Shown piece by piece: positions 1 through 48,731 of a DNA stretch of 64,000 nucleotides. The stretch is from Streptococcus thermophilus (GTDB lineage Bacteria; Bacillota; Bacilli; Lactobacillales; Streptococcaceae). The stretch is from the NCBI RefSeq assembly GCF_010120595.1, contig NZ_CP038020.1, positions 1,116,001-1,180,000 on the forward strand, given 5' to 3'. Position numbers and translations under genes: made by a program. The notes under the pieces were generated by a model. It ran no database searches. It was given only the letters and a program-made list of their open reading frames with translations, and had not been told where the DNA came from. Every line of letters begins with the position of its first letter. Within the stretch, counting starts at the first letter, position 1.

Positions 1-1
1 C

Positions 2-3000: not shown

Positions 3001-3763
3001 TGCTTCAGCAATGAACAGCGCGGCCTCACAGGTGCAATCAGCAATGCAGAATATGGCACAAGCTGTTCAGTCTAATGGCCAACGAATGATTCAAATGGGC
3101 AGACAAGCCGGGCTACAAACAGGGCAAGGAATTGCTCGGGGAATTCAATCAGCAACTGGGGCCGTATCTGCCGCAGCGGGCGCACTGGTTAGCGCAGCAC
3201 AATCACGCGCTATGGCAGGCGCAGGCGCTATGCGTTCCGCAGGGGCAATGATTGGACAAGGTTTGGCCGCTGGTATGATGTCCGCTCTTGGTGCAGTAAC
3301 AGCTGCCGCCAACGCCCTGGTAGCTCAAGCAGAGCGTGCAGCTCAAGCTAAAGCCAAGATTCACTCACCATCAAGGTTATTCCGCGATGAAGTCGGTATT
3401 TTTATCGGCCAAGGTATGGCTGTCGGTATTGACAACAGTGTTAAATACGTCAGAGATTCCATTGAGAACATGGTTGACGTGGCTAGCGGTTACGCGATAG
3501 ACGCTAGAGAGCTCTTTAAAGATAATGACCTGTTTGACGGCTTCGGCGGTGGTTTAATCCGTGGCAGCGTTGACTTAGCTGTTAGAGATGACAGTCGAAT
3601 GGACCGCCTTGAGCAAGCGATGAACGTTATTACTGGATTAATTGAGCGACCTCTATCACTTAACATAGACGGCAGGGAATTTGCATACGCCACAGGGGAC
3701 GACTTGGTATCGTACCAAAACGAAAAGGATTTTAGTTACAAACGTATGAGAGGTATTAAATAA
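2..3763 (+). CDS. Phage tail tape measure protein, 5' end outside window
   Basis: The frame is open from position 2, so the gene is truncated by the window edge; the GTG at 95 is internal. The visible 1253 residues are very rich in Ala, Ser, Ile and Met and form long amphipathic or hydrophobic helical repeats, typical of a tape measure protein that sets tail length and helps DNA cross the membrane. From about 2440 to 2920 a unit of roughly 14-22 residues of the form MxxSQFTxxxAS recurs. Near the C-terminus is the usual AKIHSPSRLFRDEVG motif (about 3350-3395), followed by IGQGMAVGI. The stop overlaps the start of the next gene by one base. The identification is by composition, motif, length and position next to Dit. 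Confidence 0.93.
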   Translation, partial: ANGLDKAIDQTTKGAAQAAQSLWKGFSDTGAVRGIANAFKYVAAQAKTALKAIDFSSIFQGLGSVFGNIANGVSRALTIATKSVRSFIDSFASTGAFQAFTSALGNVWGAIKRIGTSIGDVFSSSEVQTIISALGTAFGTLAKWISQAASAIANFVSSIPKGVLNGITSGILAMVAGFATAKAGISVLGVAMKGLDFISSLNPFKKFGKDAAEGTEQAAKSASRSKSTITQLFSGISNVIKSSGNAIKGILTAIFKGIAETYKGFGQGVKYALQGLKGLNPATLLSFGAAVAIAAVGIGTGIAIIVASFTLLATQSQGVSQILNAVGSAFGTVVESIGKAAGTIVEAFGTAFATVITAVGQAAPGLAKLSPLVEAIGTALGNASPFITAFGNAWTSILGTLPAIISAFSGFATALGTAISAVATAITPIIQIIGNTITAVTQIIANAIVAIAPIIANCIVQVAQVIGQFGPQIAMVISAIAQAISASAPIIISLIQGIVTVVQIMAPVISQVISAIVAVVQTLAPVISQIISAIVTAITQIVPIITAIGGVISAAFSGIASVVSAAGMAIATAAMGIGTAISTALSGVASIISATGSAIGAALQGIASVVQSVGTSISTAAQGIGNGIKSAFEGISSVITSAGSAISSVLDSLANVFNSIGTAAQKAGAGFNQLANGVVKITNTNLGDMAASLAAVAKGIGSISNNSAGLAAAGSGMAQLGTGMRMMSMAAASAVSSLTSFSTAASSIQASFSSLQALLTTAATAFSTFSIQAMQSLAGLTAITAPITAFQMQIMMIVPALMQASAGLTMFSAVAMALSSSLTFISTSMTMLTTGMTMLASQLTMVATGFTTMVASSTSLGASLTMMAAQFIAIGASVTMLTSQFTAFTAALTMVNSQLLVAAVGVTMFGSQFAMLGSIMSMFSSQLTMVGASIQMMTAQFTAVGSTVAMISSQFTVLIASIMQMTASISTIPPQFSAVAASATTATTAITRIGTSAPLIASAMNSAASQVQSAMQNMAQAVQSNGQRMIQMGRQAGLQTGQGIARGIQSATGAVSAAAGALVSAAQSRAMAGAGAMRSAGAMIGQGLAAGMMSALGAVTAAANALVAQAERAAQAKAKIHSPSRLFRDEVGIFIGQGMAVGIDNSVKYVRDSIENMVDVASGYAIDARELFKDNDLFDGFGGGLIRGSVDLAVRDDSRMDRLEQAMNVITGLIERPLSLNIDGREFAYATGDDLVSYQNEKDFSYKRMRGIK

Positions 3764-5298
3764 TGGCCGTGTTTCAATTTAACGGATATGATTTGAATGA
3801 TTACTTCAAATTAATCAAAGTGTCGCACGAAATTGGGAATGAACGCGATATCACTACAGACTCAGCCCCTAAAATTGGGGTTAATGTTCAACAAGTTTCG
3901 TTTGGTGCTAAAAAAATAAAATTAACTGTCAGCTTAGCGACTAGAGAACTTAACGATAATGCTTTCGTAGACCCAAACGAACCAGCTCCAATTGATTACA
4001 ACATGTTTCATCACGTAAGGGAACAAGCGGCTAGAGTGCTACACTCTGATAAACCGGTAGAATTGAAATTACCTGATGAGCCAGATAGGTACTATTTAGC
4101 GATAGTGACAGGAGAAGCTAGTTTGAAAGGTATCTCTGACTGGTATGACCAGGCTGAAATTGAATTCTTAGTACCTGACGGAGTCGCACATTCGACTACC
4201 TATCGCAGTTTTGAAACCCCTAAAATAGAGAACAACAAGATGGTATTTGACCTTGTTAACGATGGATCAGTTAATGCTAACCCAATAATTACAGTGAAGC
4301 ACAATAGTGAGAATGGCTATATTGGATTAGTTAATAGCACAGGTGTCTGCGAGCTTGGGGACAGGTTAGAAGCAAATACAGAAGATTATAGACATTCAGA
4401 GGTACTTTTTGATTACGCTTCGTCAAACGGGGAGCACAGAATCCCTAACGGTTTATCTCAAGGATTGAAAAACATTGGCATCTCAAACGATGTCAACGAC
4501 ACCAAGCCAAACGGAACTCTTTACATCGATAACGCTTGGGGTCGTCCTCACATTGCATTACAGAGTGGTCAAGTAGCATCTGTTACTTTTGACATCCCAA
4601 GAGATTCAACTGGTGAAAAAGGCGCTCTGTATGAATATTTTTGGTGGAGACAAATTTTTTGGCTTGGTTCTGCAAGTCAAATGGGTTATTTTAAAATTTG
4701 TGTCACAGACGCAAGTGGTACATTTTTGTATGGTGTTGAAACTTTTAAACGTTACAATGGTTTAGGCTGTGAATATAATTTTCTAGCTAGTGACGGTAAG
4801 GGAGGTTTCCGTATTGTCGACAGGAAGAATTTTTTAGGAACGCACATCGAGCAGCACAACCCATTTAATGAACCTAGGGGATGGTCAGATATCCTAAGGT
4901 TTGATGATGTCGTACAGTTCTACTGGTGGGGTTCTTATCCTAGATATACAATTCCTGAAATTAAGGGGAAAAAATCAGATAAAATTCATGTCATTTTAGG
5001 TAAGGTAGGCAACGCACCACTTGTTACACACATGTATTTAGATGATTTTATATACCGAAAAGACTATGTTTTTGGTGTCAGGGATATCCCTAATAGATAC
5101 CGCGCTGGTGGGAAAGTGGTAATAGATAGTGAAACTGATACCGTCATTGTAGATAATATCCCGAAAATCGTTGATGTTGTGCAAGGCTCTGACTTTCTCA
5201 CGATTCCACCGGGAAAATCACAATTAGAAGTATACTGTTCAAGTTGGGTTACGAATAAGCCCTCTGTGTCTGTTAAATTTGAAGAAAGGTATTTGTAA
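3763..5298 (+). CDS. Distal tail protein (Dit), long evolved form
   Basis: A 511-residue protein just after the tape measure gene and before Tal, the standard place for Dit, the hub that joins the tail tube to the baseplate. The N-terminus (FQFNGYDLNDYFKLIKV) and the C-terminal part (IPPGKSQLEVYCSS) resemble the Siphovirus_Dit family. A classical Dit is about 250 residues. The extra 250 or so residues in the middle (about 170-420), rich in Trp, Tyr and Gly, are probably an inserted carbohydrate-binding module, as described for evolved Dits of dairy phages. It starts at the ATG overlapping the upstream stop (TAATG), so translation is probably coupled. Confidence 0.9.
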   Translation: MAVFQFNGYDLNDYFKLIKVSHEIGNERDITTDSAPKIGVNVQQVSFGAKKIKLTVSLATRELNDNAFVDPNEPAPIDYNMFHHVREQAARVLHSDKPVELKLPDEPDRYYLAIVTGEASLKGISDWYDQAEIEFLVPDGVAHSTTYRSFETPKIENNKMVFDLVNDGSVNANPIITVKHNSENGYIGLVNSTGVCELGDRLEANTEDYRHSEVLFDYASSNGEHRIPNGLSQGLKNIGISNDVNDTKPNGTLYIDNAWGRPHIALQSGQVASVTFDIPRDSTGEKGALYEYFWWRQIFWLGSASQMGYFKICVTDASGTFLYGVETFKRYNGLGCEYNFLASDGKGGFRIVDRKNFLGTHIEQHNPFNEPRGWSDILRFDDVVQFYWWGSYPRYTIPEIKGKKSDKIHVILGKVGNAPLVTHMYLDDFIYRKDYVFGVRDIPNRYRAGGKVVIDSETDTVIVDNIPKIVDVVQGSDFLTIPPGKSQLEVYCSSWVTNKPSVSVKFEERYL

Positions 5299-8200
5299 TG
5301 CTATTAACAATTCACGATGCCAACTTACAAAAGATTGGTTTTATCGATAACGAAAAGCAAGAAACATTAAACTTCTACGATGACACTTGGACCCGTAACC
5401 TTGAGACAGCATCGAGCACGTTCGAGTTTACCGTTTCTAAGAAACAGTTACTTAGCGATACAGGAAATAAACACCTTTATAACCAACTAAACGAGCGCTC
5501 TTTTGTTTCCTTCAAATATAAAGGCAAGACATATCTTTTTAACATCATGAAGACGGAAGAAAATGAGCGATGGGTGCGATGTTACTGTGAAAACCTGAAT
5601 CTTGAATTGATAAACGAGTACACGAATGCTTACAAGGCTGAAAAAGCTATGTCATTTGCAGAATACCTCAATGCGTTTGATATTCCTCAATTTGCAATGG
5701 TAACGCTCGGTGTCAATGAAGTCTCTGACCAGAAAAAAACACTTGAATGGGAGGGACAAGACACGAAGTTAGCAAGGTTGTTGAGCTTAGCTAATAAATT
5801 TAATGCTGAAGTTGAATTCGTGACTAGACTTAATGACGATAGCTCTATTAAGCAACTCGTCCTGAACGTTTACCATCAAGCGGACGATTCACACACTGGC
5901 GTAGGTCGAATTCGTAGCGATATTCGTTTGACGTTTGAAAAAAATATCAAATCGATGACGAGAAAGGTTGATAAAACCGAGATCTATACAATGATTGTCC
6001 CTTACGGGAAAGCAAAAGAGCAACCCGAAAACGGTCCTGAAGTGAGAGTTTATATTGGTGGTCTTCCAGCTTGGGAAGAGAAGAACGATAGAGGGATTGT
6101 TATCTTCAAACAAGAGGGCAATTGTCTCTATGCACCTCATGCAGCCAACTTGTATCCTTCAACTTTTGGGGCTTCGACTCAAGATAATAAGTGGATTCGA
6201 AAAGACTTAGAGGTTGATAGCGATGATCCAAATGTCATCCGTGCTGCAGGTATTGCAAACTTACGCAAACACGCATATCCAGCTATCACTTACGAGGTTG
6301 ACGGTTTTATTGATGTCGAAATTGGGGATACGATAACAATCCACGACAAAGGATTCACACCAGCGCTTGACGTGAGAGCGCGTGCCGTTGAGCAAAAAAT
6401 TAGCTTCAGCAATCCAACCAACAATAAGACCACTTTCGGAAACTTCAAAGAGCTTGAAAATAGGACATCTGGAGACCTTAGGAGCGTTTTCGAGCAAATG
6501 GTTGAGAACAGTCGACCATACAATATCCTAGTCTCAACTGATAACGGTGTTTTGTTTAAAAACAATACAGGGCAGTCAACACTACGCCCAACATTAAAAC
6601 GAGGGAATCAGGTTATTAATGCAACATATAGATTTGTAATTGATGGTTCTATTGTTAACTCTGGTCTGACCTATACCGTCAAAGCAAGCGATATCTCAAA
6701 ACCAACTGTGATCACGATTTCAGCGTGGGTTGATAACAAAGAAGTAGCTTCAGAAGAAGTTACTTTTTTAAATGTTTCAGACGGTCTTAAAGGCGATAAA
6801 GGAGACCCAGGGCGTGATGGTATCGCTGGTAAGGATGGTGTAGGTCTTCGTTCTACAAATATCACTTACGCCTCGTCAACATCAGGAACAAGCGCCCCTA
6901 GCAATGGCTGGACTAGCTCAGTACCAACGGTACCAGCTGGACAGTATCTGTGGACTAAGACTGTCTGGAATTACACAGACAGTACCTCAGAGACTGGTTA
7001 TTCAGTAGCTAGGATTGGTAAAGACGGCAACACTGGTAGAGATGGCGTACCTGGTAAAGACGGTGTAGGGATAAACTCTACTACGGTAGTTTACGCTGGT
7101 TCTACATCAGGAACTGTCCCACCGTCTAGCGGTTGGTCTGATCAAATCCCTAGCGTATCTCCTGGTCAATATCTCTGGACTAAAACCACATGGAGCTATA
7201 CAGATAATACTAGCGAGACTGGTTTTTCAGTCGCTAAAATGGGAGAGGTAGGACCTAAAGGTGACCGTGGTGAACAAGGTTTGCAAGGACCACGGGGAGA
7301 GCAAGGGATTCCTGGACCTAAAGGAGCAGACGGAAGAAGCCAATATACACATATTGCTTACGCTGATACAATTTCAGGTAGTGGCTTTAGTCAAACAGAT
7401 ACTAACAAGGCTTTCATCGGCATGTATCAAGATTTCAACACCACGGATAGTCAAAACCCTCAAGACTACCGTTGGTCTAAGTGGAAAGGTAGCGATGGAC
7501 GGGATGGTGTTCCTGGTAAGCCAGGAGCTGATGGACGCACGCCTTATGTCCACTTCGCTTACGCAGATAGTCCAGATGGACGTACAGGTTTCAGTGTTAC
7601 ACAGAACGGTAAAAAACGCTATTTAGGTGTGTACACCGATTTCAATCAAGCGGACAGCACTAATCCTTCTGATTACACATGGAATGACACTGCGGGTAGT
7701 ATATCAGTTGGTGGTCGGAACTTGCTTGTAAAAACCAATCAAGGTATTACTAATTGGGATTGGGGGCTTTCCGACGGCGACAAGAGCTTTGAAGAGGTCA
7801 AAGTTGATGGCATTCGTGCTGTAAAACTAATCAAAGGTTCAACAACAGCAAACACTGGTTGGAATTACATTTCATATAACGGTTTACTGCGTGAACTCAT
7901 ACAGCCGAACACTAAGTATGTTCTTTCGTTCGATGTTAAACCAAGCGTTGATGTAACTTTCTATGCAACGCTAACGCAAGGAGACTTTAAAGAGACGTTT
8001 ACTGATACTGGGACTATGACTAAAGCATTAGCAAATCAGTGGAATAAGGTATCGTGCGTTTTGACAAGTAAAGAAACTTTGCCAAATATTACATGGCAGC
8101 TTGTACACTTATCAGGTATGCCGACAACAAATGGTAGTTGGCTAATCGTCAAGAATATCAAACTTGAAGAAGGCAACATACCTACTCAGTGGACTCCCGC

Positions 8201-8732
8201 AATTGAAGACATACAAGATGAAATTGACACTAAGGCTGACAGTGTATTGACGCAAAGTCAGTTAAACCAATTGAATGAGATTAATTCGGTGATGAAAGCA
8301 GAGCTCGAAGCCAAAGCGTCTCTTGATACGCTCAATCAATGGGTCAAGGCTTATCAAGATTTTGTTAATGCAAATAGCGCAGATCGCGCACAAGCTCAAA
8401 AGGCTTTGGCAGATGCTAGTGCACGAGTAGTTAAACTAGAAAATAACTTAAACGATATGTCAGAGCGTTGGAATTTTATCGACAACTACATGGCAGCATC
8501 AAATGATGGTCTTGTCATTGGAAAAAAAGATAACTCCAGCTCTATCATGTTCAATCCAAACGGGCGTATATCAATGTTCTCAGCCGGTAATGAGGTAATG
8601 TATATCTCTCAGGGTGTGATTCACATTGAAAACGGTATTTTTTCTAAAACTGTTCAAATTGGACGATTCCTAGAAGAACAAGATTCCATAAATCCGGATC
8701 GTAACGTCATTCGCTATGTGGGAGGTATTTAA
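5298..8732 (+). CDS. Tail-associated lysin / host-recognition protein (Tal, antireceptor)
   Basis: An 1144-residue protein with a TAATG overlap with dit. The first 380 residues or so resemble the prophage tail endopeptidase domain that closes the baseplate hub. Then comes a modular part: collagen-like Gly-X-Y stretches near 6790-6845, 7018-7068, 7246-7340 and 7492-7545, separating two pairs of duplicated modules (one pair ending QYLWTKTxWxYTD, the other with the motif HxAYADxxxGxGF). A carbohydrate-binding-like domain starts at SVGGRNLL (near 7703), followed by a helical C-terminal part. In S. thermophilus phages the homologous gene determines host range. Spacers 30 and 35 of the array in this window match this gene, and spacer 1 matches its repeated module at the protein level. 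Confidence 0.92.
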   Translation: MLLTIHDANLQKIGFIDNEKQETLNFYDDTWTRNLETASSTFEFTVSKKQLLSDTGNKHLYNQLNERSFVSFKYKGKTYLFNIMKTEENERWVRCYCENLNLELINEYTNAYKAEKAMSFAEYLNAFDIPQFAMVTLGVNEVSDQKKTLEWEGQDTKLARLLSLANKFNAEVEFVTRLNDDSSIKQLVLNVYHQADDSHTGVGRIRSDIRLTFEKNIKSMTRKVDKTEIYTMIVPYGKAKEQPENGPEVRVYIGGLPAWEEKNDRGIVIFKQEGNCLYAPHAANLYPSTFGASTQDNKWIRKDLEVDSDDPNVIRAAGIANLRKHAYPAITYEVDGFIDVEIGDTITIHDKGFTPALDVRARAVEQKISFSNPTNNKTTFGNFKELENRTSGDLRSVFEQMVENSRPYNILVSTDNGVLFKNNTGQSTLRPTLKRGNQVINATYRFVIDGSIVNSGLTYTVKASDISKPTVITISAWVDNKEVASEEVTFLNVSDGLKGDKGDPGRDGIAGKDGVGLRSTNITYASSTSGTSAPSNGWTSSVPTVPAGQYLWTKTVWNYTDSTSETGYSVARIGKDGNTGRDGVPGKDGVGINSTTVVYAGSTSGTVPPSSGWSDQIPSVSPGQYLWTKTTWSYTDNTSETGFSVAKMGEVGPKGDRGEQGLQGPRGEQGIPGPKGADGRSQYTHIAYADTISGSGFSQTDTNKAFIGMYQDFNTTDSQNPQDYRWSKWKGSDGRDGVPGKPGADGRTPYVHFAYADSPDGRTGFSVTQNGKKRYLGVYTDFNQADSTNPSDYTWNDTAGSISVGGRNLLVKTNQGITNWDWGLSDGDKSFEEVKVDGIRAVKLIKGSTTANTGWNYISYNGLLRELIQPNTKYVLSFDVKPSVDVTFYATLTQGDFKETFTDTGTMTKALANQWNKVSCVLTSKETLPNITWQLVHLSGMPTTNGSWLIVKNIKLEEGNIPTQWTPAIEDIQDEIDTKADSVLTQSQLNQLNEINSVMKAELEAKASLDTLNQWVKAYQDFVNANSADRAQAQKALADASARVVKLENNLNDMSERWNFIDNYMAASNDGLVIGKKDNSSSIMFNPNGRISMFSAGNEVMYISQGVIHIENGIFSKTVQIGRFLEEQDSINPDRNVIRYVGGI

Positions 8733-8734
8733 TA

Positions 8735-10744
8735 ATGGTAGAATTTTGGTCAAATAATGACCGTGGGTATCGCATTAGATTGTGGATTGACCAAGTTGGG
8801 CAGAATGTTCAAAATAATACGAGCGATGTCCGTATTCGCTTGGCATTGCTTAATCAATGGTGGACGTTCGCAAGTTATCAATGTTATGGCTATGTCGATG
8901 GGTTTGGTCAACGGCTTGAATATTCAGGAAGTCCTTCAATGCTGTCCACAAATTCAGAAATACAGCTTATTGATCGCACGATTACCGTTAGCCATGCAGA
9001 TGACGGAACTGGTGTTTTTGGCGTAACCGCTCACTTCAATGGTTCGGGTGGATACAGTCCAGGGAATCTAGATATTGGTAACCAAAGTATAACACTGACG
9101 ACGATTCCAAGAGGGAGCACAGTAAGTGTTACGGATGGGGTTATTGGAAATCAAGTAGATATCACTATTAACCGAAAACTAGGCGGAGCTACGCACACAT
9201 TACGTTATTCTTGGTACAACAAACAAGGTGAAATTGCTAACAACGTAGGGACATCTTACAAATGGACAATCCCAGCAGATTTTGCTGATGACATACCAAG
9301 ATCTACCTCTGGCCGAGGTACTATATACGTTGATACCTACATTGGTGGCAGGTTAATTCAGACACAATCGACCACGTTAACGGCAAGCGTTAACGCAGAC
9401 AGTCTGAAACCGTACTTCACAGGATTTACTTTAACGGACGCAAATGCAACGACTCAAAGGATAATTCCAGAGCCAACACATTTCGTGTCCATAATGTCGC
9501 TTGTGAAAGTTACATTCAACGGAGCGCAGCCCCGAAACGGGGCTACAATAGATGGGTACTATGCTGAAATCGTTAGGGCAAATAATTCTATTACAGAAAA
9601 CGGCGGGGTGTTGCGTGAGGTATCTGTCAATAAAGACACTCAAATGACATTAAGAGGGAGAGTTCAAGACTCTCGTGGGATTTGGTCTGATTGGAAAGAG
9701 GTTAAAATAACTTTTCTATTTTATTTCAGCCCAAATCTAAGCTTTGAAGTTACCAGAAGTGGCTCAAAGTCGGACACACTAACGATTAAGAGATACGCTA
9801 AAATAGCCCCGCTAGTTGTCAATGGTTCTCAAAGGAATATCATGAAACTTACTTTTTCAACTGTTAAAGTTGGAATGGATAACTTTGTTGTTGACAACGG
9901 GCAGGCAGGCGGTGTATGGTCAAGTATTTCAGAGTTTAACGCATCTAGTGCTAATCTAGGAAACACATACCCAGCCGATACTTCTTACATAGTCAAAGGA
10001 AAACTAGAAGATAGTTTTTCAAGCACAGAGTTTCAGGACACAGTACCAACTGATAGGGTTGTTATGACCTATGATAAAAGCGGTGTCGGCATTGGGAAAT
10101 ATAGAGAGAATGGAGCGCTTGACGTCAACGGTGACATTTATGCTAATAATAGCCCAATCCAGCAGTACCAGCTAACTAGTAATAATGGATCTGCGAAATG
10201 GGTAACCAATGCAAATACCATACAAGACGCTGGACAATATTACCTATTCCCAGATGCCCCAGGAAACCCCAACAAACAGTGGGGTCATCTATTCCATCAC
10301 AGCAACTATGGAAAAGGTAGCATGTATAAAGAAGCTATTCAGATTTTTTGGGGGAACAACGGCCAACTATTCTTCAGGCATCACCGATGGTCGATGATAA
10401 TTGACGATTGGGAGCCGTGGAAGGAATTTGCAAGAAACGATAATCAAAATCTAATTAACACGGGCTGGCAACCAGCAGGATATGAAGGCAGCTTTTACAA
10501 GCGCGTTGGAGATGTTCTGACAGTTAAATATAATTTTACGGGGGATGGGGGTAGTATTGCCTTTGCAACGATACCGAAAGAAATCTTTACAGCCCCACAA
10601 GATTACATGTTTACCATTTCTGGTTGGTCTATCTTTAACGATACTGACACTCACGCTCAAATTAACGATGGAAATAGCTCTATTTGGGCAGTTGGTGCTA
10701 AAAACGGTGTTATATATCGAGGTCAACTAACAATTATGCTATAG
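8735..10744 (+). CDS. Distal tail protein of the DUF859 family
   Basis: A 669-residue protein two bases after the tal stop. Length, position and opening sequence (VEFWSNNDRGYRIRLWIDQV) fit the DUF859 family found in S. thermophilus and other streptococcal siphophages, thought to be a baseplate or receptor-binding component. The body looks like repeated beta-rich domains with Gly, Asn and aromatic residues. The C-terminal third contains a GVGIGKYRENGALDVNGDIY segment, common in tail fibre and baseplate tips. Spacer 10 of the array matches 10499-10528 with only synonymous differences. The precise structural role is inferred. Confidence 0.85.
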   Translation: MVEFWSNNDRGYRIRLWIDQVGQNVQNNTSDVRIRLALLNQWWTFASYQCYGYVDGFGQRLEYSGSPSMLSTNSEIQLIDRTITVSHADDGTGVFGVTAHFNGSGGYSPGNLDIGNQSITLTTIPRGSTVSVTDGVIGNQVDITINRKLGGATHTLRYSWYNKQGEIANNVGTSYKWTIPADFADDIPRSTSGRGTIYVDTYIGGRLIQTQSTTLTASVNADSLKPYFTGFTLTDANATTQRIIPEPTHFVSIMSLVKVTFNGAQPRNGATIDGYYAEIVRANNSITENGGVLREVSVNKDTQMTLRGRVQDSRGIWSDWKEVKITFLFYFSPNLSFEVTRSGSKSDTLTIKRYAKIAPLVVNGSQRNIMKLTFSTVKVGMDNFVVDNGQAGGVWSSISEFNASSANLGNTYPADTSYIVKGKLEDSFSSTEFQDTVPTDRVVMTYDKSGVGIGKYRENGALDVNGDIYANNSPIQQYQLTSNNGSAKWVTNANTIQDAGQYYLFPDAPGNPNKQWGHLFHHSNYGKGSMYKEAIQIFWGNNGQLFFRHHRWSMIIDDWEPWKEFARNDNQNLINTGWQPAGYEGSFYKRVGDVLTVKYNFTGDGGSIAFATIPKEIFTAPQDYMFTISGWSIFNDTDTHAQINDGNSSIWAVGAKNGVIYRGQLTIML

Positions 10745-10759
10745 AGAGAAGGAAAATTC

Positions 10760-11182
10760 ATGAAATTTGAATACGAATCAAAGTCGAAAGAATACGATGC
10801 TAGTGGTGCAGCGTTCGCCACCAAAGTGGTTTTGAGAAACCGAGATGGCGCTTACGTACCCGTCTTTTTGCCCGCCGAAAAAATTGACTTATCAAATACC
10901 GAGCTACTTGAGTTAGCTCTGGAAGTCATTTATCAGGAAAATTTCCCTCAACGTGCGGAAAATGAAAAATTTAATGAACTTGATGAAAAAATCAAAGAGT
11001 ACGAAGCATTAAGTAAAAAAGCTACAGAAACCATCGCTAAGATGGAGGAGCAAATGACGAAACAGAAAGAAGAATCAAGCACCGCGCAAGCAACGTTGAT
11101 GAGTATTGTTGAAAAATTATACGATAAAAATGTATTGAGTGATGAAGACTTAACTGAAACGCCTGCTCCTGAAACCAAATAA
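10760..11182 (+). CDS. Phage protein, DUF1366-like
   Basis: A 140-residue protein with a good ribosome binding site (AGAGAAGGAAA) before ATG. The N-terminal 70 residues look globular (KFEYESKSKEYDASG, then VYQENFPQRAENEKF). The C-terminal half is a charged coiled coil (about 75-125) ending in a Pro/Thr/Glu tail. It resembles DUF1366 proteins, which sit between tail and lysis genes in S. thermophilus phages. Function is unknown. It may be a minor tail or chaperone-like protein. Confidence 0.75.
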   Translation: MKFEYESKSKEYDASGAAFATKVVLRNRDGAYVPVFLPAEKIDLSNTELLELALEVIYQENFPQRAENEKFNELDEKIKEYEALSKKATETIAKMEEQMTKQKEESSTAQATLMSIVEKLYDKNVLSDEDLTETPAPETK

Positions 11183-11205
11183 TAAATAGAAAGAAGGAAA
11201 AAAAT

Positions 11206-11352
11206 ATGATAGCAAAATTATTCGCTATTAACGTAGCTAATGGGAACTATCCATTTAAACGAGTCCCTAAAGTTTTGAAGCCAAAAGTTAAAGAGAAAAT
11301 CGCTACCATGGTAAATGACGATGAACTCTTAGCAAAACTTACACAAGAATAG
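11206..11352 (+). CDS. Small phage protein of 48 residues
   Basis: An ATG at 11206 follows a strong Shine-Dalgarno (AGAAGGAAAAAA). The predicted 48-residue protein starts MIAKLFAINVANG and carries KVLKPKVKEKIATMV. It is basic, probably helical, with no membrane segment. Very small proteins at this place, between the last tail gene and the holin genes, are common in streptococcal phages (compare XkdX-like proteins), but no function is known. Its own ribosome binding site and tight spacing to both neighbours support it as a real gene. Confidence 0.7.
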   Translation: MIAKLFAINVANGNYPFKRVPKVLKPKVKEKIATMVNDDELLAKLTQE

Positions 11353-11365
11353 TTAGGAGTGCGGT

Positions 11366-11689
11366 ATGGTAAATCAAACCGAGCCAGATTTGATAAAATG
11401 GATTTTAACGGTATTTATCCCTCTCTCCATTTCAAGTGCGAGTTTCTATTTTACTAGTCAATCACGCGCCTCTCGATTAGAACACAGAATCACTAAATTG
11501 GAGGTCGTCGACCATGAAATCGAGAAAATAATTGAAACCCACAACAAACGGCTTGATAAATATCAAGAAGAGCAGAAAATAACTCTAGCTCTGGTCCAAA
11601 GAATGGACCATCTTAATGAGAATATCGGGGAGCTAAAAGGAAATATCGAAGAAGTTAAAAAATTAGTAGATCGAAACTTGAGAGGATGA
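11366..11689 (+). CDS. Phage membrane protein with coiled coil, probable lysis-module component
   Basis: A 107-residue protein with TTAGGAGT before the ATG. One membrane segment lies near residues 10-29 (IKWILTVFIPLSISSASFYF), followed by a charged coiled coil to the C-terminus. The shape resembles XhlA-type or first holin proteins encoded just before the phage holin. The stop overlaps the next start (ATGA), so the two are probably translated together. It may be a holin, anti-holin or holin accessory protein; the sequence does not separate these. Confidence 0.75.
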   Translation: MVNQTEPDLIKWILTVFIPLSISSASFYFTSQSRASRLEHRITKLEVVDHEIEKIIETHNKRLDKYQEEQKITLALVQRMDHLNENIGELKGNIEEVKKLVDRNLRG

Positions 11690-11940
11690 CTAATAAAATG
11701 ATTAATTTTAAATTACGTTTGCAAAACAAAGCTACATTAGTAGCTCTTGTCTCGGCAATATTTCTTATGTTGCAACAATTTGGGCTTCACATTCCGACCA
11801 ACATTCAAGAGGGAGTAAATACCTTTGTTGGAATTTTGGTTATTCTTGGAATCGTGACAGACCCCACCACTAAGGGGATCGCAGACAGTGGACGAGCATT
11901 GAATTACATCAAACCACTAGACGATAAGGAAGAAAAATAA
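11686..11940 (+). CDS. Phage holin, phi LC3 family
   Basis: An 84-residue protein that fits the phi LC3 holin family: INFKLRLQNKATLVALVSA, a hydrophobic hairpin (about residues 16-34 and 43-58) and the C-terminal motif VTDPTTKGIADSGRALNY. It would form the membrane holes that let the endolysin reach the cell wall. The annotated ATG overlaps the upstream stop; a second in-frame ATG four codons later is also possible and would give the more usual MINFKLRL start. Confidence 0.92.
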   Translation: MTNKMINFKLRLQNKATLVALVSAIFLMLQQFGLHIPTNIQEGVNTFVGILVILGIVTDPTTKGIADSGRALNYIKPLDDKEEK

Positions 11941-11941
11941 T

Positions 11942-12787
11942 ATGAGCGTACAACAATCTATTGTAAACTGGTTTGTTAACCATAGAGGTAAATTGACCTA
12001 TTCAATGTATGGCAGTCGAAACGGTTCAGACGGTACAGCTGACTGTTCTGGTTCGATTTCACAAGCATTAAAAGAAGCAGGTGTCGGTATTCAAGGACTA
12101 CCATCAACAGTAACTCTAGGACAACAACTAGCAAACAACGGTTTCTATCGTGTAAGTCGCAATCAAGATTGGGATGCCTTGGCAGGAGACATAATCTTAA
12201 TGTCATGGGGTGTTGATATGTCACAATCTGGCGGAGCTGGTGGTCACGTTGGTGTCATGATGGATAGTGTAAACTTCATTAGTTGTGATTATTCAACACA
12301 AGGAGCAGTGGGTCAAGCTATCAATACGTATCCTTGGAACGACTACTATGCCTCAAACAAGCCTGCATATATCGAGGTTTGGCGTTATGCTGACTCTGCA
12401 CCGCAAACCAACAACCAAGCTAATACAGCAGTATCACCACAACAGAAGGCTTACTATCAAGCAAACGAGGTTAAATACGTTAACGGTATTTGGCAAATTA
12501 AGTGCGACTATTTGGTCCCAGTTGGATTTGACTGGACTGAGAACGGAATCCCTGTTGCAATGGTTAACTGGGTAGATGCTGACGGCAACGACCTCGCAGA
12601 CGGTGCTGACCAAGATTTCAAAGCAGGCATGTTCTTTAGTTTTGAGGGTGATGAAACTAACATAACAGATACCGGAAATGGTGGTTACTATGGTGGGTAC
12701 TATTGGCGCCAGTTCGAATTTGGTCAGTTTGGTACGGTTTGGTTATCTTGTTGGAATAAAGATGATTTGGTAAACTACTACCAATAG
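11942..12787 (+). CDS. Phage endolysin, Amidase_5 / NlpC-P60-like
   Basis: A 281-residue lysin directly after the holin (AATAATATG). The first 145 residues look like an Amidase_5 domain: catalytic Cys in TADCSGSIS (about residue 36) and a His in GGHVGVMMD (about residue 100), as in the Cys/His amidases of streptococcal phages. After a Gln/Asn-rich linker (about 152-172) comes a C-terminal domain rich in Trp, Tyr and Gly (KYVNGIWQIKCDYL to YYWRQFEFGQFG), probably for cell-wall binding. No signal peptide, consistent with holin-dependent release. Confidence 0.9.
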   Translation: MSVQQSIVNWFVNHRGKLTYSMYGSRNGSDGTADCSGSISQALKEAGVGIQGLPSTVTLGQQLANNGFYRVSRNQDWDALAGDIILMSWGVDMSQSGGAGGHVGVMMDSVNFISCDYSTQGAVGQAINTYPWNDYYASNKPAYIEVWRYADSAPQTNNQANTAVSPQQKAYYQANEVKYVNGIWQIKCDYLVPVGFDWTENGIPVAMVNWVDADGNDLADGADQDFKAGMFFSFEGDETNITDTGNGGYYGGYYWRQFEFGQFGTVWLSCWNKDDLVNYYQ

Positions 12788-12870
12788 ACCACGCAAACTA
12801 AAAAATAAAAAAGGAGTATATAACCTCCCATCACACTGCAGTAGGGATACCATGGCAGTAGTGGTTGAAG

Positions 12871-12899
12871 CCTCAGCATTTTGCTGGGGCTTTTTTTGT
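12871..12899 (+). terminator. Rho-independent terminator after the lysin gene
   Basis: GCCTCAGCATTTTGCTGGGGC folds into a GC-rich hairpin followed by a run of T. It lies about 85 bases after the lysin stop and ends the late transcript. The segment in between (12800-12865) contains further short imperfect inverted repeats but no gene. Confidence 0.85.
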
Positions 12900-12975
12900 T
12901 TGCTTCGTTTTGATATAAATGCTACTACATTAATGGATACAGTTAAATGTTATAGTCTTCGATAAACTCTCTCTC

Positions 12976-13010
12976 GCCCTGGCTTGAATTAGTCAGGGTT
13001 TTCTTTTTAA
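12976..13010 (+). terminator. Second hairpin terminator in the lysis-accessory gap
   Basis: CCCTG and CAGGG flank a 12-base loop, followed by TTTTCTTTTT. It separates the late transcript from the small peptide gene at 13077. Confidence 0.65.
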
Positions 13011-13076
13011 TTGTAGGCTCATTAGCATTTATGTTTCTTTGGATTATTTCAAAATAGAAAATTGAGGATTAGAGAA

Positions 13077-13145
13077 ATGATTGGATTTGTTATTTGGATT
13101 TTATCTATATTATTGTTGATATTGATTGGAGCGCTTATATTTTAG
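13077..13145 (+). CDS. 22-residue hydrophobic peptide
   Basis: ATG at 13077 is preceded by GAGGA at a good distance. The predicted product is 22 residues, almost all Ile, Leu, Val, Phe, Trp and Gly, so it would be a single membrane helix. A hairpin terminator follows directly. It has terminators on both sides, so it may be its own transcript. Tiny membrane peptides like this include type I toxins and phage membrane peptides. No antisense RNA can be established from sequence alone. It could also be a chance frame. Confidence 0.45.
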   Translation: MIGFVIWILSILLLILIGALIF

Positions 13146-13150
13146 GAAGA

Positions 13151-13176
13151 AGAGGGCAATCGCTCTCTTTTTTTAT
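13151..13176 (+). terminator. Terminator before the acr operon
   Basis: AGAGGGC pairs with GCTCTCT across a four-base loop, followed by a T run. It insulates the acr operon promoter from upstream transcription. Confidence 0.8.
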
Positions 13177-13209
13177 TTTGCAAAAAACTAAATTTCTTTA
13201 TCGTAAGTG

Positions 13210-13238
13210 TTGACAAACTATCTTATATGATATATACT
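13210..13238 (+). promoter_or_regulatory. Strong sigma-A promoter of the acr operon
   Basis: TTGACA (13210-13215) and TATACT (13233-13238) are separated by 17 bases, near-consensus spacing and sequence. It lies about 30 bases upstream of the first gene's leader and is the only evident promoter for the block 13272-15152. Confidence 0.85.
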
Positions 13239-13252
13239 ATACATATAAGATA
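13219..13252 (+). promoter_or_regulatory. Inverted-repeat operator over the acr promoter
   Basis: TATCTTATATG (13219-13229) and CATATAAGATA (13242-13252) are perfect 11-base inverted repeats. The left arm lies in the spacer between -35 and -10, and the right arm just after the -10, so a bound dimer would block RNA polymerase. The best local candidate to bind it is the HTH protein encoded at 14730-15152. The structure is seen directly; the binding partner is inferred. Confidence 0.75.
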
Positions 13253-13271
13253 AAGAGAGGGAATAAAAGAT

Positions 13272-13616
13272 ATGAAATCACAAGTAATGAGCCTAGCATG
13301 GAAAATCTTCAAAAACGAAAAAAACGATGTAACTTTTTCTGAAGCGTTGAAATTTGCTTGGAAAGCCGTTAAACGTCAAAACATGGCGGATGATTTCTAC
13401 TTCTTCCGTTCTTCAAACGTTAAATTCCAAGGTGTTAAGAAATGGTTTGCTGAAAAAGAATTTCGTGGACGCAACAAGAAAGACTTGGCGTTTATGTCAG
13501 TAACTGCAATCAGCATTAAAGGGTTGGTTGAAGAAACTGATAAAGCGGTTAAGCTTGAAATCGTGACACCTTATGGAATTTCTACTAAATGGTATCCAAA
13601 GAGTGTAATTGCTTAA
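13272..13616 (+). CDS. Hypothetical accessory protein, first gene of the acr operon
   Basis: A 114-residue basic protein preceded by AGAGAGGGAA. The N-terminus MKSQVMSLAWKIFKN and then FSEALKFAWKAVKRQ have the paired AW helices that I recall from small accessory proteins of streptococcal and enterococcal phages and conjugative elements. The rest looks like a small alpha/beta domain (KKWFAEKEFRGRNKKDLAFMS). Function unknown. As the first gene under a strong, operator-controlled promoter and directly upstream of the AcrIIA6 homologue, it is a candidate anti-defence protein. That is inference only. Confidence 0.8.
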   Translation: MKSQVMSLAWKIFKNEKNDVTFSEALKFAWKAVKRQNMADDFYFFRSSNVKFQGVKKWFAEKEFRGRNKKDLAFMSVTAISIKGLVEETDKAVKLEIVTPYGISTKWYPKSVIA

Positions 13617-13637
13617 TTAAAAGAAGGAGAAATAAAA

Positions 13638-14189
13638 ATGGAAATCAACAACGATATTAAACAACTGATCTTGGAATACGCTAAACGTTATTTCAAGTTT
13701 GAGAACGACTTTTATAAACTGCCAGGCATCAAGTTCACTGATGCAAATTGGCAGAAGTTCAAAAATGGAGGCACTGCCATTGAGAAGATGGGGGCAGCAC
13801 GAGTAAACGCCATGCTCGACTGCCTATTCGAAGATTTCGAGCTTGCAATGATTGGCAAGGCTCAACAAGAATACTATTCGGATAATTCCTTGAAAGTAAA
13901 TATGGCATTCTATGCTTATTACGATCAATTCAAAAAACAACAGCTTATGAAATGGCTTAAAGATAATCACGATGACATCATAGGAGGGACTGGTAGAATG
14001 TACACGTCAAGCGGTAGTTACATTGCTAACGCTTATTTAGAAATTGCGTTAGAATCTAGCCGTCTGGGTGGTGGTTCTTACATGATCCAAATGAGGTTTA
14101 AAGACTATTCAAAAGGTCAAGAACCTATTCCGTCTGGTCGTCAGAATCGACTTGAATGGATTGAGAGCAACTTGGAAAACATTCGATAA
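13638..14189 (+). CDS. acrIIA6: Anti-CRISPR protein AcrIIA6 homologue
   Basis: A 183-residue protein, the same length as AcrIIA6 of S. thermophilus phage D1811, and very similar along its whole length as I remember that sequence: FKFENDFYKLPGIKFTDANW near residues 19-39, KMGAARVNAMLDCLF near 50-65, IGGTGRMYT near 114-122 and SGRQNRLEWIE near 167-177. AcrIIA6 is a homodimer that binds St1Cas9 allosterically and lowers its affinity for DNA. The gene has a good ribosome binding site (AAGAAGGAGAAA) and lies second in an operon under a strong promoter. A St1Cas9-type enzyme is encoded in this window at 44279, so the natural target is present. Differences from D1811 lie mainly in the N-terminal 15 residues and around 90-140. 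The match is from memory and has not been aligned. Confidence 0.93.
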   Translation: MEINNDIKQLILEYAKRYFKFENDFYKLPGIKFTDANWQKFKNGGTAIEKMGAARVNAMLDCLFEDFELAMIGKAQQEYYSDNSLKVNMAFYAYYDQFKKQQLMKWLKDNHDDIIGGTGRMYTSSGSYIANAYLEIALESSRLGGGSYMIQMRFKDYSKGQEPIPSGRQNRLEWIESNLENIR

Positions 14190-14214
14190 AAAATAAAAAA
14201 ACGAGGTAAAAACA

Positions 14215-14466
14215 ATGGATACATACAAAGAACAATTTCAAGAATTACAAGAATACGCTTTTAACGTTTTAAGAGAATACCCTCTAGATAAGACAGCAGT
14301 TAATGTACTTTCTGCACTCGTTAACTCAAAAAAGAAAGATCGCATCGAGTTTTTTAAACTAAACAAAGGCGAAGACGCCATGAAAGTTTATTATAATCTA
14401 GCAGATAGCGGAACGATTGAAAAATATTTAGAAACATCTGCATTCTTAGAATACATCAATGAATAA
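14215..14466 (+). CDS. Hypothetical acidic protein in the acr operon
   Basis: An 83-residue acidic, probably all-helical protein (MDTYKEQFQELQEYAFNVLR, later FFKLNKGEDAMKVYYNLADSG). GAGGTAAAAACA precedes the ATG. It is cotranscribed with the AcrIIA6 homologue, 25 bases downstream. I do not recognise the family. Small acidic proteins are common among anti-CRISPRs and other DNA-mimic inhibitors, but that is only a reason to test it. Confidence 0.75.
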   Translation: MDTYKEQFQELQEYAFNVLREYPLDKTAVNVLSALVNSKKKDRIEFFKLNKGEDAMKVYYNLADSGTIEKYLETSAFLEYINE

Positions 14467-14491
14467 TCTGATATAGAAAGGTTTAACTGAT

Positions 14492-14671
14492 ATGAAGAAA
14501 TTTTGGCGTAGTGGCATGATTGACAAGAAGGTTATTGAAAAACGTAAACAAGATGATTATATGAATAAATTACACAGGACTATTCTTGAGTTGAGTATAA
14601 AACCACCTGAACCCGAACCTTGGTACAGACATCCAGAAATGAGAGCATTGTTGGATAGGATTGATGATTAG
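14492..14671 (+). CDS. Small basic hypothetical protein, 59 residues
   Basis: ATG at 14492 is preceded by AGAAAGGTTT. The 59-residue product is charged (MKKFWRSGMIDKKVIEKRKQ) and ends with a Pro-rich segment and RHPEMRALLDRIDD. It fits tightly between the 83-residue gene and the HTH gene on the same strand. No family recognised. Confidence 0.6.
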   Translation: MKKFWRSGMIDKKVIEKRKQDDYMNKLHRTILELSIKPPEPEPWYRHPEMRALLDRIDD

Positions 14672-14678
14672 AGAAGCA

Positions 14679-14708
14679 ATTGAAAGTAACTTGGAAAATA
14701 TTCGATAA
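14679..14708 (+). repeat. Duplicated 3' end of the acrIIA6 gene
   Basis: These 30 bases match the last 30 bases of the acrIIA6 homologue (14160-14189) at 27 positions, including the stop codon, and encode the same IESNLENIR end. They follow the 59-residue gene directly. This is a remnant of a second acr copy or a recombination junction. Confidence 0.85.
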
Positions 14709-14729
14709 TGAAGAGAGGAAATAAATGAA

Positions 14730-15152
14730 ATGAAAATCAATACGACAAGAGTTAAAATGGTCTTGAAGAATGAGGTTATACCTGCTATTTATTTAGAGAA
14801 TGAGCTTGGTATCAGTCGTTCTGTTATTGAAAAAGTGAGAGATGGCGAGCGAAAAATAGAGAATCTAACTCTTGAAACGATTATAAAAATTCAAAAGTGG
14901 ATCGATGATGGAAACTACACTTTCAGCTACGACTATAGCGACCTAATCGAAGAACTGGAGGAAGATATTGCAGAAGGCTTGGTAGATGAGTATATCTACG
15001 TAGTCAGAGGTCCGTATAATGAACTTTTAGAGAAATGCCCAATCATTGACTACTACTATACTTCTGAAGAAATTGAAGAAGGGGATCTTGCAGAGAAGAC
15101 CTTGATAACTTCTGTCTTAGCTGAAATGAAGTCAGACAACAAAATCTTTTAA
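14730..15152 (+). CDS. HTH-domain protein, candidate Aca-type regulator of the acr operon
   Basis: A 140-residue acidic protein. Residues about 17-55 look like an XRE-type helix-turn-helix (IYLENELGISRSVIEKVRDG, then LTLETIIKIQKWID). The C-terminal two thirds are very acidic (DLIEELEEDIAEGLVDEY, later YYTSEEIEEGDLAEK) with no family I recognise. It is the last gene of the operon that carries the AcrIIA6 homologue. Anti-CRISPR genes are often followed by an HTH repressor (Aca) that binds an inverted repeat in the shared promoter, and such a repeat is present at 13219-13252. It is 140 residues like AcrIIA5, but the sequence is unrelated to AcrIIA5 as I remember it. Confidence 0.75.
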   Translation: MKINTTRVKMVLKNEVIPAIYLENELGISRSVIEKVRDGERKIENLTLETIIKIQKWIDDGNYTFSYDYSDLIEELEEDIAEGLVDEYIYVVRGPYNELLEKCPIIDYYYTSEEIEEGDLAEKTLITSVLAEMKSDNKIF

Positions 15153-15175
15153 CCGTTCAAATGAGCGGTTTTTTG
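15151..15175 (+). terminator. Terminator of the acr operon
   Basis: AACCG and CGGTT flank a 10-base loop and are followed by a T run, right at the stop codon of the HTH gene. Confidence 0.85.
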
Positions 15176-15578
15176 TACGCTTATTAGTATGACGGTGTCC
15201 ACGATTCTGTCCACCTTTTTCAGAAATCCATAGGAATAAATACAAGTAAAATAATGCAACTTATGCTACCAAGTTTTTTTATATCAAAAGGGGGCAAATA
15301 AGGGGCAATAAGTGTAAACTTTAGTAACTTCATGTAAGTTTTACTGTCTATGTTTTACACGCATATACCTTTATTTGATAGGTTTTCTTCCTATTATATA
15401 CACATTTAAAACGACACTAGTAGAATACCGTGGTTTGAAATCATTCTACAACTTGAAAAAATAATTCTATTGTAATATAGAATGGAAAGAGGTTCCTTGG
15501 GGAATCTCTTTTTTGTCTTCTCACAAATAAAATATCACACTATAATATTTCTGAGTCTAAATTAGTCATCTGAATAAA
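15176..15578. other. Gene-free prophage/chromosome junction region
   Basis: No gene is seen here. Two GGGGCAA direct repeats (near 15290-15312, about 10 bp apart), several AT-rich direct repeats and a hairpin (AGAGGTTCCTTGGGGAATCTCT followed by T, near 15489-15515) are present. No tRNA 3' end is recognisable, so this is not the tRNA-Arg site used by several S. thermophilus phages. The right attachment site probably lies here, but the core cannot be fixed without the left end. Confidence 0.5.
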
Positions 15579-15613
15579 AAAATTCCCTCAATCCTATTGA
15601 TTGGGGGAATTTA
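15579..15613 (-). terminator. Terminator of the 61-residue protein gene
   Basis: AAATTCCCTCAATC and GATTGGGGGAATTT form a long stem, followed on the minus strand by a T run. It lies just past the stop codon of the minus-strand gene at 15617. Confidence 0.85.
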
Positions 15614-47200: not shown

Positions 47201-47641
47201 ACTGGTAAATATGAAATTTTAGGACTGAAATATTCTGATATGCAGTTCGAGAAAGGTACTGGGAAGTACTCTATTTCAAAAGAACAATATGAAAATATTA
47301 AGGTTAGAGAGGGTGTAGATGAAAATTCTGAATTTAAGTTTACACTTTATAAAAACGATTTATTACTGCTTAAGGATTCCGAAAATGGCGAGCAAATCCT
47401 ATTGAGGTTCACTTCTCGAAATGATACTTCTAAACATTATGTGGAATTAAAACCTTATAATAGACAGAAATTTGAAGGAAGTGAATATCTGATTAAATCA
47501 TTAGGGACTGTTGCCAAAGGAGGTCAATGCATAAAAGGGCTAGGAAAATCAAATATTTCTATTTATAAAGTAAGAACGGATGTTCTAGGAAATCAGCATA
47601 TCATCAAAAATGAGGGTGATAAGCCTAAGCTAGATTTTTAA
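44279..47641 (+). CDS. cas9: Cas9 nuclease, St1Cas9 type (CRISPR1, type II-A)
   Basis: A 1120-residue Cas9 that is nearly identical, over about the first 950 residues, to St1Cas9 of strain LMD-9 as I remember it. The RuvC Asp is residue 9 (VLGLDIGIGSVG), the HNH His is residue 599 (VDHILPLS), and the other RuvC residues lie in IVIEMARE and YHHHAVDALIIA. All catalytic residues are intact. From about residue 955 on, the PAM-interacting domain differs clearly from LMD-9 (QSLKPWRTDVYFNKNTGK, NDTSKHYVELKPYN, VAKGGQCIKG), so PAM preference may differ from NNAGAAW. Cas9 is guided by tracrRNA and crRNA to cut phage DNA, and is the target of AcrIIA6-type proteins. Confidence 0.98.
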   Translation: MSDLVLGLDIGIGSVGVGILNKVTGEIIHKNSRIFPAAQAENNLVRRTNRQGRRLTRRKKHRIVRLNRLFEESGLITDFTKISINLNPYQLRVKGLTDELSNEELFIALKNMVKHRGISYLDDASDDGNSSVGDYAQIVKENSKQLETKTPGQIQLERYQTYGQLRGDFTVEKDGKKHRLINVFPTSAYRSEALRILQTQQEFNPQITDEFVNRYLEILTGKRKYYHGPGNEKSRTDYGRYRTNGETLDNIFGILIGKCTFYPEEFRAAKASYMAQEFNLLNDLNNLTVPTETKKLSKEQKNQIINYVKNEKAMGPAKLFKYIAKLLSCDVADIKGYRIDKSGKAEIHTFEAYRKMKTLETLDIEQMDRETLDKLAYVLTLNTEREGIQEALEHEFADGSFSQKQVDELVQFRKANSSIFGKGWHNFSVKLMMELIPELYETSEEQMTILTRLGKQKTTSSSNKTKYIDEKLLTEEIYNPVVAKSIRQAIKIVNAAIKEYGDFDNIVIEMARETNEDDEKKAIQKIQKANKDEKDAAMLKAANQYNGKAELPHSVFHGHKQLATKIRLWHQQGERCLYTGKTISIHDLINNPNQFEVDHILPLSITFDDSLANKVLVYATANQEKGQRTPYQALDSMDDAWSFRELKAFVRESKTLSNKKKEYLLTEEDISKFDVRKKFIERNLVDTRYASRVVLNALQEHFRAHKIDTKVSVVRGQFTSQLRRHWGIEKTRDTYHHHAVDALIIAASSQLNLWKKQKNTFVSYSEDQLLDIETGELISDDEYKESVFKAPYQHFVDTLKSKEFEDSILFSYQVDSKFNRKISDATIYATRQAKVGKDKADETYVLGKIKDIYTQDGYDAFMKIYKKDKSKFLMYRHDPQTFEKVIEPILENYPNKQMNEKGKEVPCNPFLKYKEEHGYIRKYSKKGNGPEIKSLKYYDSKLGNHIDITPKDSNNKVVLQSLKPWRTDVYFNKNTGKYEILGLKYSDMQFEKGTGKYSISKEQYENIKVREGVDENSEFKFTLYKNDLLLLKDSENGEQILLRFTSRNDTSKHYVELKPYNRQKFEGSEYLIKSLGTVAKGGQCIKGLGKSNISIYKVRTDVLGNQHIIKNEGDKPKLDF

Positions 47642-48730: not shown

Positions 48731-48731
48731 G

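Follow-up and report, generated by a model that had tools for sequence, protein, structure and literature searches.

Several anti-CRISPR (Acr) proteins combine the inhibition of their target with the regulation of their own locus, and AcrIIA1, AcrIIA11, AcrIIA15 and AcrIF24 have been described as such bifunctional Acr-Aca proteins. AcrIIA6 is not named as an autoregulator in the available portions of the literature on self-regulating Acrs. It is a helix-turn-helix (HTH) dimer that resembles, and superposes on, the restriction-modification controller protein C.Esp1396I, and it binds double-stranded DNA in vitro, as well as single-stranded DNA and DNA-RNA duplexes (Hynes 2018; PMC6060171). In the accessible sections of that paper, the HTH and the DNA binding are reported without an explained role, and the binding of double-stranded DNA without a demonstration of sequence specificity.

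Of 12 temperate Streptococcus thermophilus phages, 9 carry acrIIA6, as do 81 of 242 virulent ones (Hynes 2018; PMC6060171), and in one survey of 191 genomes AcrIIA6 was the most frequent known anti-CRISPR of these phages (69 genomes). A first-pass annotation of the DNA studied here described the family as one known from virulent phages, which omits the nine temperate carriers in the same paper. Loops 119-133, 142-148 and 156-171 of AcrIIA6 contact Cas9, and the PAM-interacting domain is the main interface on the Cas9 side (review PMC9953297). The AcrIIA6 proteins of the virulent phages D1811, D1024 and DT1 have the same length, 183 residues, as the protein described below and belong to the same family.

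AcrIIA6 resembles the Acr-Aca proteins in having both an HTH, which is published, and an inverted repeat in its own promoter; it differs from them in that operator binding and repression are predicted from sequence. Both AcrIIA6 and C.Esp1396I would act on their own promoters; unlike C.Esp1396I, AcrIIA6 also has a Cas9-binding part. The identity of the present gene as AcrIIA6 and its prophage carriage were already known (RefSeq; Hynes 2018; PMC6060171). What is new is a palindrome-like core in the acr promoter that goes with acrIIA6.

Prophage 20617 and its acr operon

The window, the whole stretch of 64,000 nucleotides of S. thermophilus DNA that was analysed, opens with the right part of integrated prophage 20617 (1..15464, + strand). 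This part ends at attR (15422..15464), a 43-bp sequence with an identical copy at chromosome position 1090457; the direct repeat bounds the prophage, as is likewise reported in a paper on strain DSM 20617T (PMC6237837). Window positions 1-15900 are 100% identical to the phage 20617 record, and the chromosome differs from that record by two mismatches and one gap over 44,474 aligned columns. The host is therefore probably DSM 20617T itself or a strain almost identical to it. Carriage of the gene by a resident prophage, as first annotated, is thus well founded.

The acrIIA6 gene (13638..14189, + strand) is an intact open reading frame (ORF) of 183 codons. Its annotation as an AcrIIA6 homologue is upheld by alignment with the PDB AcrIIA6 of D1811 (6eyy/6eyx), in which 158 of 183 residues are identical over the full length, 1-183 (86%; phmmer E 1.9e-108); the carrier here is an integrated temperate phage. 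Streptococcus phage 20617 has the same gene, without any difference (183/183), as e28; RefSeq NC_023503 labels it 'anti-CRISPR protein AcrIIA6'. Relatives are encoded by 138 of 50,697 records in the phage collection, 121 of them covering at least 80% of the length, with phage 20617 as the best match (100%). The AcrIIA6 of temperate phage TP-J34 is 89% identical; relatives of e29, e30 and e31 also lie downstream of it, and TP-J34 has a Gp111-family gene where the window has e27.

The contact loops are nearly conserved between the window protein and those of D1811 and DT1. Loops 119-133, 142-148 and 156-171 carry two, two and no differences from D1811, respectively; each of these differences recurs in other alleles, and the locus of phage CHPC873 (L200) has the same three loops as the window protein. 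Residue 81 is variable across alleles, and its candidacy as an activity switch was rejected because DT1, which carries I81, has an AcrIIA6 that was active in published tests (Hynes 2018; PMC6060171). Across 24 alleles, 47 of the N-terminal 75 residues are invariant, against 45 of the 108 residues at 76-183, so that conservation is stronger in the N-terminal part; dimerisation may be an alternative cause of this. A structure model of the window protein was weak (mean pLDDT 61.9), and a Foldseek structure search returned AcrIIA6 itself as the sole match at E <0.001.

The acr cluster lies between the lysin gene and attR in the order e27, acrIIA6, e29, e30 and e31, all on the + strand. The first gene, e27 (13272..13616), e29 (14215..14466), e30 (14492..14671, positioned from the phage record) and e31 (14730..15152, 140 aa) have no assigned function. 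Relatives of e27 are near five of 25 acrIIA6 genes, those of e31 near eight, and a Gp111-family gene near 14. The N-terminus of e31 looks HTH-like by eye only; a Pfam search of e31 found no HTH, and homology to the AcrIIA6 N-terminus was rejected, since 1192 of 2000 shuffles reached the local alignment score. Just before e31 lies a second acrIIA6 3' end (14679..14708, + strand; IESNLENIR-stop; 27/30 nt identical), a remnant that is probably the scar of a duplication or recombination.

Two terminator-like hairpins (12867-12893 and 12976-12999, + strand) separate the lysis genes from the acr operon; a hairpin scan found seven in the region, compared with 1.2 expected from shuffles. Lysin, holin and tail-gene transcripts were seen in growing and stationary lysogens (PMC6237837). 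The acr gene is absent from the transcript table given in the available text of that paper, as is the word CRISPR from that text; a cured derivative of the lysogen, A33, is described there.

The acr promoter and its predicted operator

A sigma-70-type promoter for the acr operon is predicted at 13210..13238 (+ strand; TTGACA-17-TATACT), with 11 of 12 consensus positions. It is the best of 13 promoter consensus matches in the region; this total is no more than chance, since shuffles give 11.3. An inverted-repeat search revealed a predicted operator that overlaps this promoter (13219..13252), an 11-bp perfect inverted repeat of the form TATCTTATATG-N12-CATATAAGATA. Comparison of acrIIA6 loci narrowed it to a shared core, TATCTTATATGATA (13219-13232). 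The palindrome-like core, TATCWT..ATGATA, sits between the -35 and -10 elements. The acr promoter holds the only mismatch-free occurrence of TATCWTRTATGATA in the 2.1-Mb host chromosome; a second chromosomal site, at 1324901, fits the wider core pattern.

Distribution of the core among phages

After removal of duplicate loci and of fragments (L029 and L030, which hold only a piece of acrIIA6), 25 distinct acrIIA6 loci encoding 24 distinct proteins were compared. The promoter cassette, with at most two mismatches in 29 nt, lies upstream of acrIIA6 in all 25, at a distance of 61 to 741 bases and with 0, 1 or 2 intervening genes depending on the phage. Even before the most divergent AcrIIA6 relative (71% protein identity), TATCATATATGATATATAAT is unchanged. 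The 11-bp repeat of the window is whole in only two other loci (L208 and L200) and reaches 10 bp in L189. TATC-N6-GATA is common to 24 of the 25; DT1 has TATT, with the outer arm changed. Nine of the 25 loci have the core as a perfect 14-bp palindrome; in the others the palindrome is imperfect.

The core pattern TATC[AT]T[ACG]T[AG]TGATA occurs at one site in each of eight full AcrIIA6 phage genomes and in none of five full phage genomes without AcrIIA6, one of which has a degraded copy; a mean of 0.05 sites was expected by chance in these 13 genomes overall (20 shuffles). The 13 are not a random sample: 11 were selected through searches with the window CRISPR1 (CR1) array or Acr, 20617 is the window prophage and CHPC1148 was picked for its cassette. 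In the compared DNA the pattern matches 39 strand-sites, of which 22 are on the same strand as acrIIA6 and precede it by no more than 1 kb. The remaining 17 comprise the reverse strand of nine of those 22 operators, both strands of second copies in L252, L254 and L023 (six), an operator in a locus that is cut before acr, and the chromosomal site 1324901.

The DNA upstream of the cluster is similar, down to an identical hairpin sequence, in three phages that carry AcrIIA5 (D4276, CHPC877 and CHPC1062), and two of them, D4276 and CHPC877, also have a Gp111-family relative as the first gene of the cluster. In the promoters of all three, GTTGACN4GTCAAC replaces the AcrIIA6 core (L202:23147, L204:23398 and L253:1861). 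These represent two independent sequences, since D4276 and CHPC877 are identical there. The same palindrome is also found in an AcrIIA6 phage, CHPC873 (L200:25523), before another gene, and in P4761, another AcrIIA5 carrier, neither the AcrIIA6-type core nor the AcrIIA5-type palindrome was found.

The cassette is also met apart from acr. In CHPC1148, where tblastn found neither AcrIIA6 nor AcrIIA5, a cassette with three mismatches precedes a 105-aa gene, and the AcrIIA6 carriers CHPC663, P7631 and L023 have a second cassette copy before such a gene. Copies of the 105-aa gene behind an AcrIIA6-type cassette of their own lie at L252:2566-2883, L254:2562-2879 and L251:2566-2883. A Pfam search of this gene gave no match, and it is a candidate for a new counter-defence gene. 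The motif is therefore not exclusively an acr promoter: either AcrIIA6 has a regulon to which the 105-aa gene also belongs, or the motif is used more widely. With the 3-mismatch cassette of CHPC1148 as the exception, the predicted operator, an inverted repeat within the operon's own promoter, goes with acrIIA6.

Conservation of this kind could arise merely by common descent or from the demands of a strong promoter, with no repressor involved. The phages are closely related and swap modules, the promoter hexamers are near consensus, and only nine of the 25 loci have the perfect palindrome. The stretch between -35 and -10 elements is, however, normally little constrained, and here its 17 nt have a mean pairwise identity of 0.931. 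The 40 preceding nucleotides reach 0.685, a 30-nt stretch that follows 0.649 and the third codon positions of acr 0.660 (0.824 for the whole acr gene). These 17 nt are kept with 0, 1 or 2 genes before acr, and in the three AcrIIA5 operons another inverted repeat takes their place. We therefore regard descent or promoter strength as an improbable explanation of the palindrome.

It is somewhat less improbable, although still unlikely, that another regulator binds the palindrome, whether e31, a Cro-like phage repressor or a host factor, with AcrIIA6 as a passenger. The e31 gene belongs to the same module, has an N-terminus that looks HTH-like by eye, and could be the regulator wherever it is present, in eight of the 25 loci; the cassette copies before the 105-aa gene in some phages also fit such a regulator. 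Yet e31 is near only eight of 25 acrIIA6 genes and has no HTH according to Pfam. Cro-like genes are annotated also in phages that lack both AcrIIA6 and the core (for example CHPC879 and CHPC1062), and a host factor alone would leave the association of the motif with acrIIA6 unaccounted for. Six other operon genes were tested, and none is near all 25 acr genes; as the commonest reaches 14 of 25, none of the six is the common partner of the core. With an HTH whose role is unexplained and a core that goes with acrIIA6, AcrIIA6 itself is the likely repressor of its operon.

Host Cas9 variant and its inferred PAM

The complete St1Cas9-type locus annotated 30 kb from acrIIA6 is indeed present, with cas9, cas1, cas2 and csn2 and an array of 36 repeats. 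All its elements are on the + strand: cas9 (44279..47641; 1120 aa), an 18-nt anti-repeat of a probable tracrRNA between cas9 and cas1 (47713..47730), cas1, cas2 and csn2 (47819..50104) and the CR1 array (50167..52509) with 35 spacers, 34 of them distinct. The first-pass annotation regarded this Cas9 as the matching St1Cas9, and over residues 1-956 (10 differences) it is. Compared with St1Cas9 (PDB 6rj9), 890 of the first 900 residues are identical, as are all of 901-956 and the final 26. The match fails in the PAM-interacting domain (957-1094), where 37 of 139 columns differ and 102 are identical. Thus the window AcrIIA6, known here by its sequence, faces another PAM-interacting domain than do the AcrIIA6 proteins of D1811, D1024 and DT1.

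The PAM was examined by comparing the 35 CR1 spacers, and the 22 spacers of the CR3 locus, with 197 of 209 loci, 12 pieces of host chromosome being excluded. Protospacers at no more than three mismatches were found for 21 of the 35 CR1 spacers and for none of the other 14. NNDAAA stands 3' of the protospacer for 18 of the 19 distinct CR1 spacers with a target at no more than two mismatches (background 2.9%; one of the 19 protospacers is in the resident prophage), and by the commonest flank NNAGAAW was found for 0 of these 19. The CR3 spacers served as a control, and the 11 with targets at no more than two mismatches gave NGGNG (G in 11/11 at position 3, 10/11 at position 5 and 8/11 at position 2). 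We infer from these flanks that the PAM of the host Cas9 is the A-rich NNDAAA rather than NNAGAAW. St1Cas9 is reported to have strain variants whose PAMs are A-rich; as these are described, the present enzyme is like them, with a near-identical body and an exchanged PAM-interacting domain.

The exception to NNDAAA is spacer 35, which is farthest from the leader and whose targets have NNATAAT in four loci and NNAGAAT in one. This spacer (52444-52473) has an exact target with the canonical NNAGAAT in CHPC873. It may have been acquired before the PAM-interacting domain was exchanged. Spacers 14 and 33 (51060-51089 and 52312-52341) are identical, with an exact target in CHPC877; their neighbours are different, so that this protospacer was probably acquired twice.

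Inhibition of this Cas9 variant by AcrIIA6 cannot be assumed, because the PAM-interacting domain is divergent and the inferred PAM A-rich. The variant may have escaped the resident Acr, its PAM-interacting domain no longer being bound and both proteins remaining active. The 37 differing columns fall in the main AcrIIA6 interface domain, and a natural St1Cas9 is said to be resistant to AcrIIA6. This domain variant is common, however (the 120 proteins listed of 595 matches are all at least 98% identical there), and yet AcrIIA6 is still frequent among the phages (69 of 191). We consider an escaped Cas9 possible but unlikely, and inhibition of the host variant by AcrIIA6 reasonably probable from the sequences.

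Coexistence of the prophage and CRISPR

The annotated relationship between the spacers and the prophage is real but inexact. Six of the 34 distinct CR1 spacers, and none of 510 shuffled ones, come within seven mismatches of the prophage, as do seven of the 22 CR3 spacers. No spacer, among 34 distinct CR1 and 22 CR3 spacers, matches the prophage exactly. For this reason self-targeting was rejected as proof of an active Acr.

The closest CR1 spacer is number 12 (50928..50957, + strand), which matches the resident prophage at 28 of 30 positions; counted from the PAM, its two mismatches are 18 and 4 nt away. The target flank, AGAAAATT, fits the NNDAAA consensus. NNAGAAW was rejected as the standard for this spacer, as the derived PAM makes the target PAM a good one. 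Acquisition of spacer 12 from the window prophage is unlikely, because each of the 25 phage records listed highest has one mismatch to it and the prophage two. The best CR3 spacer has a near-match flanked by TGGTG in the lysin gene (12661..12690, + strand; flank TGGTGGGT); its three mismatches lie at 27, 12 and 3 nt, again counted from the PAM.

A family search returned only CR1 and so raised the loss of the CR3 Cas9; this was rejected, as the CR3 locus has an intact Cas9 ORF of 1409 aa and 23 repeats. Three AcrIIA6 alleles that were tested did not inhibit St3Cas9, the CR3 type, and phages are stated to infect freely after single protospacer mutations (Hynes 2018, introduction; PMC6060171). 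Since the CR3 Cas9 is intact and of a kind reported as insensitive to AcrIIA6, mismatch alone must explain the coexistence of the prophage with CR3; if mismatch suffices for CR3, it would also be sufficient for CR1.

These observations bear on the reading in the first-pass annotation, by which AcrIIA6 could silence CR1 in the lysogen and may be what lets prophage and CRISPR1 live together. The Acr is full-length with a promoter match of its own, and spacer 12 reaches 28/30 beside the consensus PAM of the array. There is, however, no exact target, the mismatch of spacer 12 only 4 nt from the PAM falls in a setting where single protospacer mutations are enough for free infection (PMC6060171), and the intact CR3 Cas9, reported as AcrIIA6-insensitive in kind, coexists with the prophage nonetheless. 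CR1 is possibly silenced in the lysogen, but the combined reading is doubtful, and the sequence does not require the Acr as enabler of coexistence. Coexistence of prophage and CRISPR would rest first on the lack of exact spacers and not on the Acr.

Phage-borne CR1 mini-arrays and other observations

Seven S. thermophilus phages carry one or two CR1 repeat-spacer units each, the last repeat being degenerate, and in six of the seven the site is between terS and terL. The arrays are at L209:1501-1602, at L243:247-348 and in the terS-terL gap of L240, L241, L242, L244 and L245. Several of the spacers have exact targets in the terminase alleles of other phages, beside AAAGAATT or CAAGAAAT. Phages 128 and CHPC982 have spacers against the terL allele of P9903, which in turn has one against theirs; the terL copy of P9903 itself has AAAGAGTT. 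For two mini-array spacers no target was found in the DNA compared. The mini-arrays look like instruments of inter-phage competition.

The mini-array spacer of SW18 (L243:283-312) matches the superinfection-exclusion gene of prophage 20617 (L002:4469-4498) with two mismatches and the flank TTGAAAAA, the PAM type of the window host, and matches SW18's own copy of that gene exactly. SW11 (L209) encodes AcrIIA6 alongside a CR1 mini-array, even though its Acr would be expected to inhibit the Cas9 on which the array would depend. Elsewhere in the window, a perfect 49-bp tandem duplication (37973-38070) overlaps the start of a 346-aa ORF (36992-38032, - strand).

Proposed role of AcrIIA6

On balance we favour the reading in which AcrIIA6 both represses its own operon through the promoter operator and inhibits the CRISPR1 Cas9 of the host; the autoregulatory half, taken by itself, is also somewhat favoured. 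The acr operon would be on in the lysogen, and an AcrIIA6 dimer would bind the operator via its N-terminal HTH, blocking RNA polymerase and keeping the dose of free Acr low. AcrIIA6 would also bind the PAM-interacting side of the host Cas9 variant and lower target binding. On entry into a cell free of AcrIIA6, the promoter would be unrepressed and a burst of Acr would follow, while in the lysogen CR1 would be dampened and not abolished. As self-repression is likely, there would be a limit on how far AcrIIA6 disarms host immunity; what the promoter palindrome points to is an Acr dose kept small by self-repression, and not complete silencing.

In a more elaborate form, which we hold to be rather unlikely, AcrIIA6 would be a Cas9-sensing, self-limiting inhibitor that matches the dose of Acr to that of Cas9. 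By way of the TATCWT..ATGATA operator, free AcrIIA6 would close the promoter of its own gene. Cas9-guide complexes would sequester AcrIIA6 and thereby open the promoter again, and the lysogen would make inhibitor in just the amount needed for its Cas9. Were this so, AcrIIA6 would be an immune suppressor, a thermostat and a repressor of the acr genes of incoming phages, and superinfecting AcrIIA6 phages with the same operator would be left exposed to CR1.

The Cas9 variant, with its inferred A-rich PAM, means that CRISPR1 target predictions for the host strain should not rely on NNAGAAW. A predicted operator core tied to acrIIA6 gives the HTH domain a concrete and cheaply testable function. If the prediction is true, AcrIIA6 joins the autorepressing Acrs, and its autorepression would bear on the loss of CRISPR immunity in lysogens and on the repression of incoming phages' acr genes by a resident prophage.
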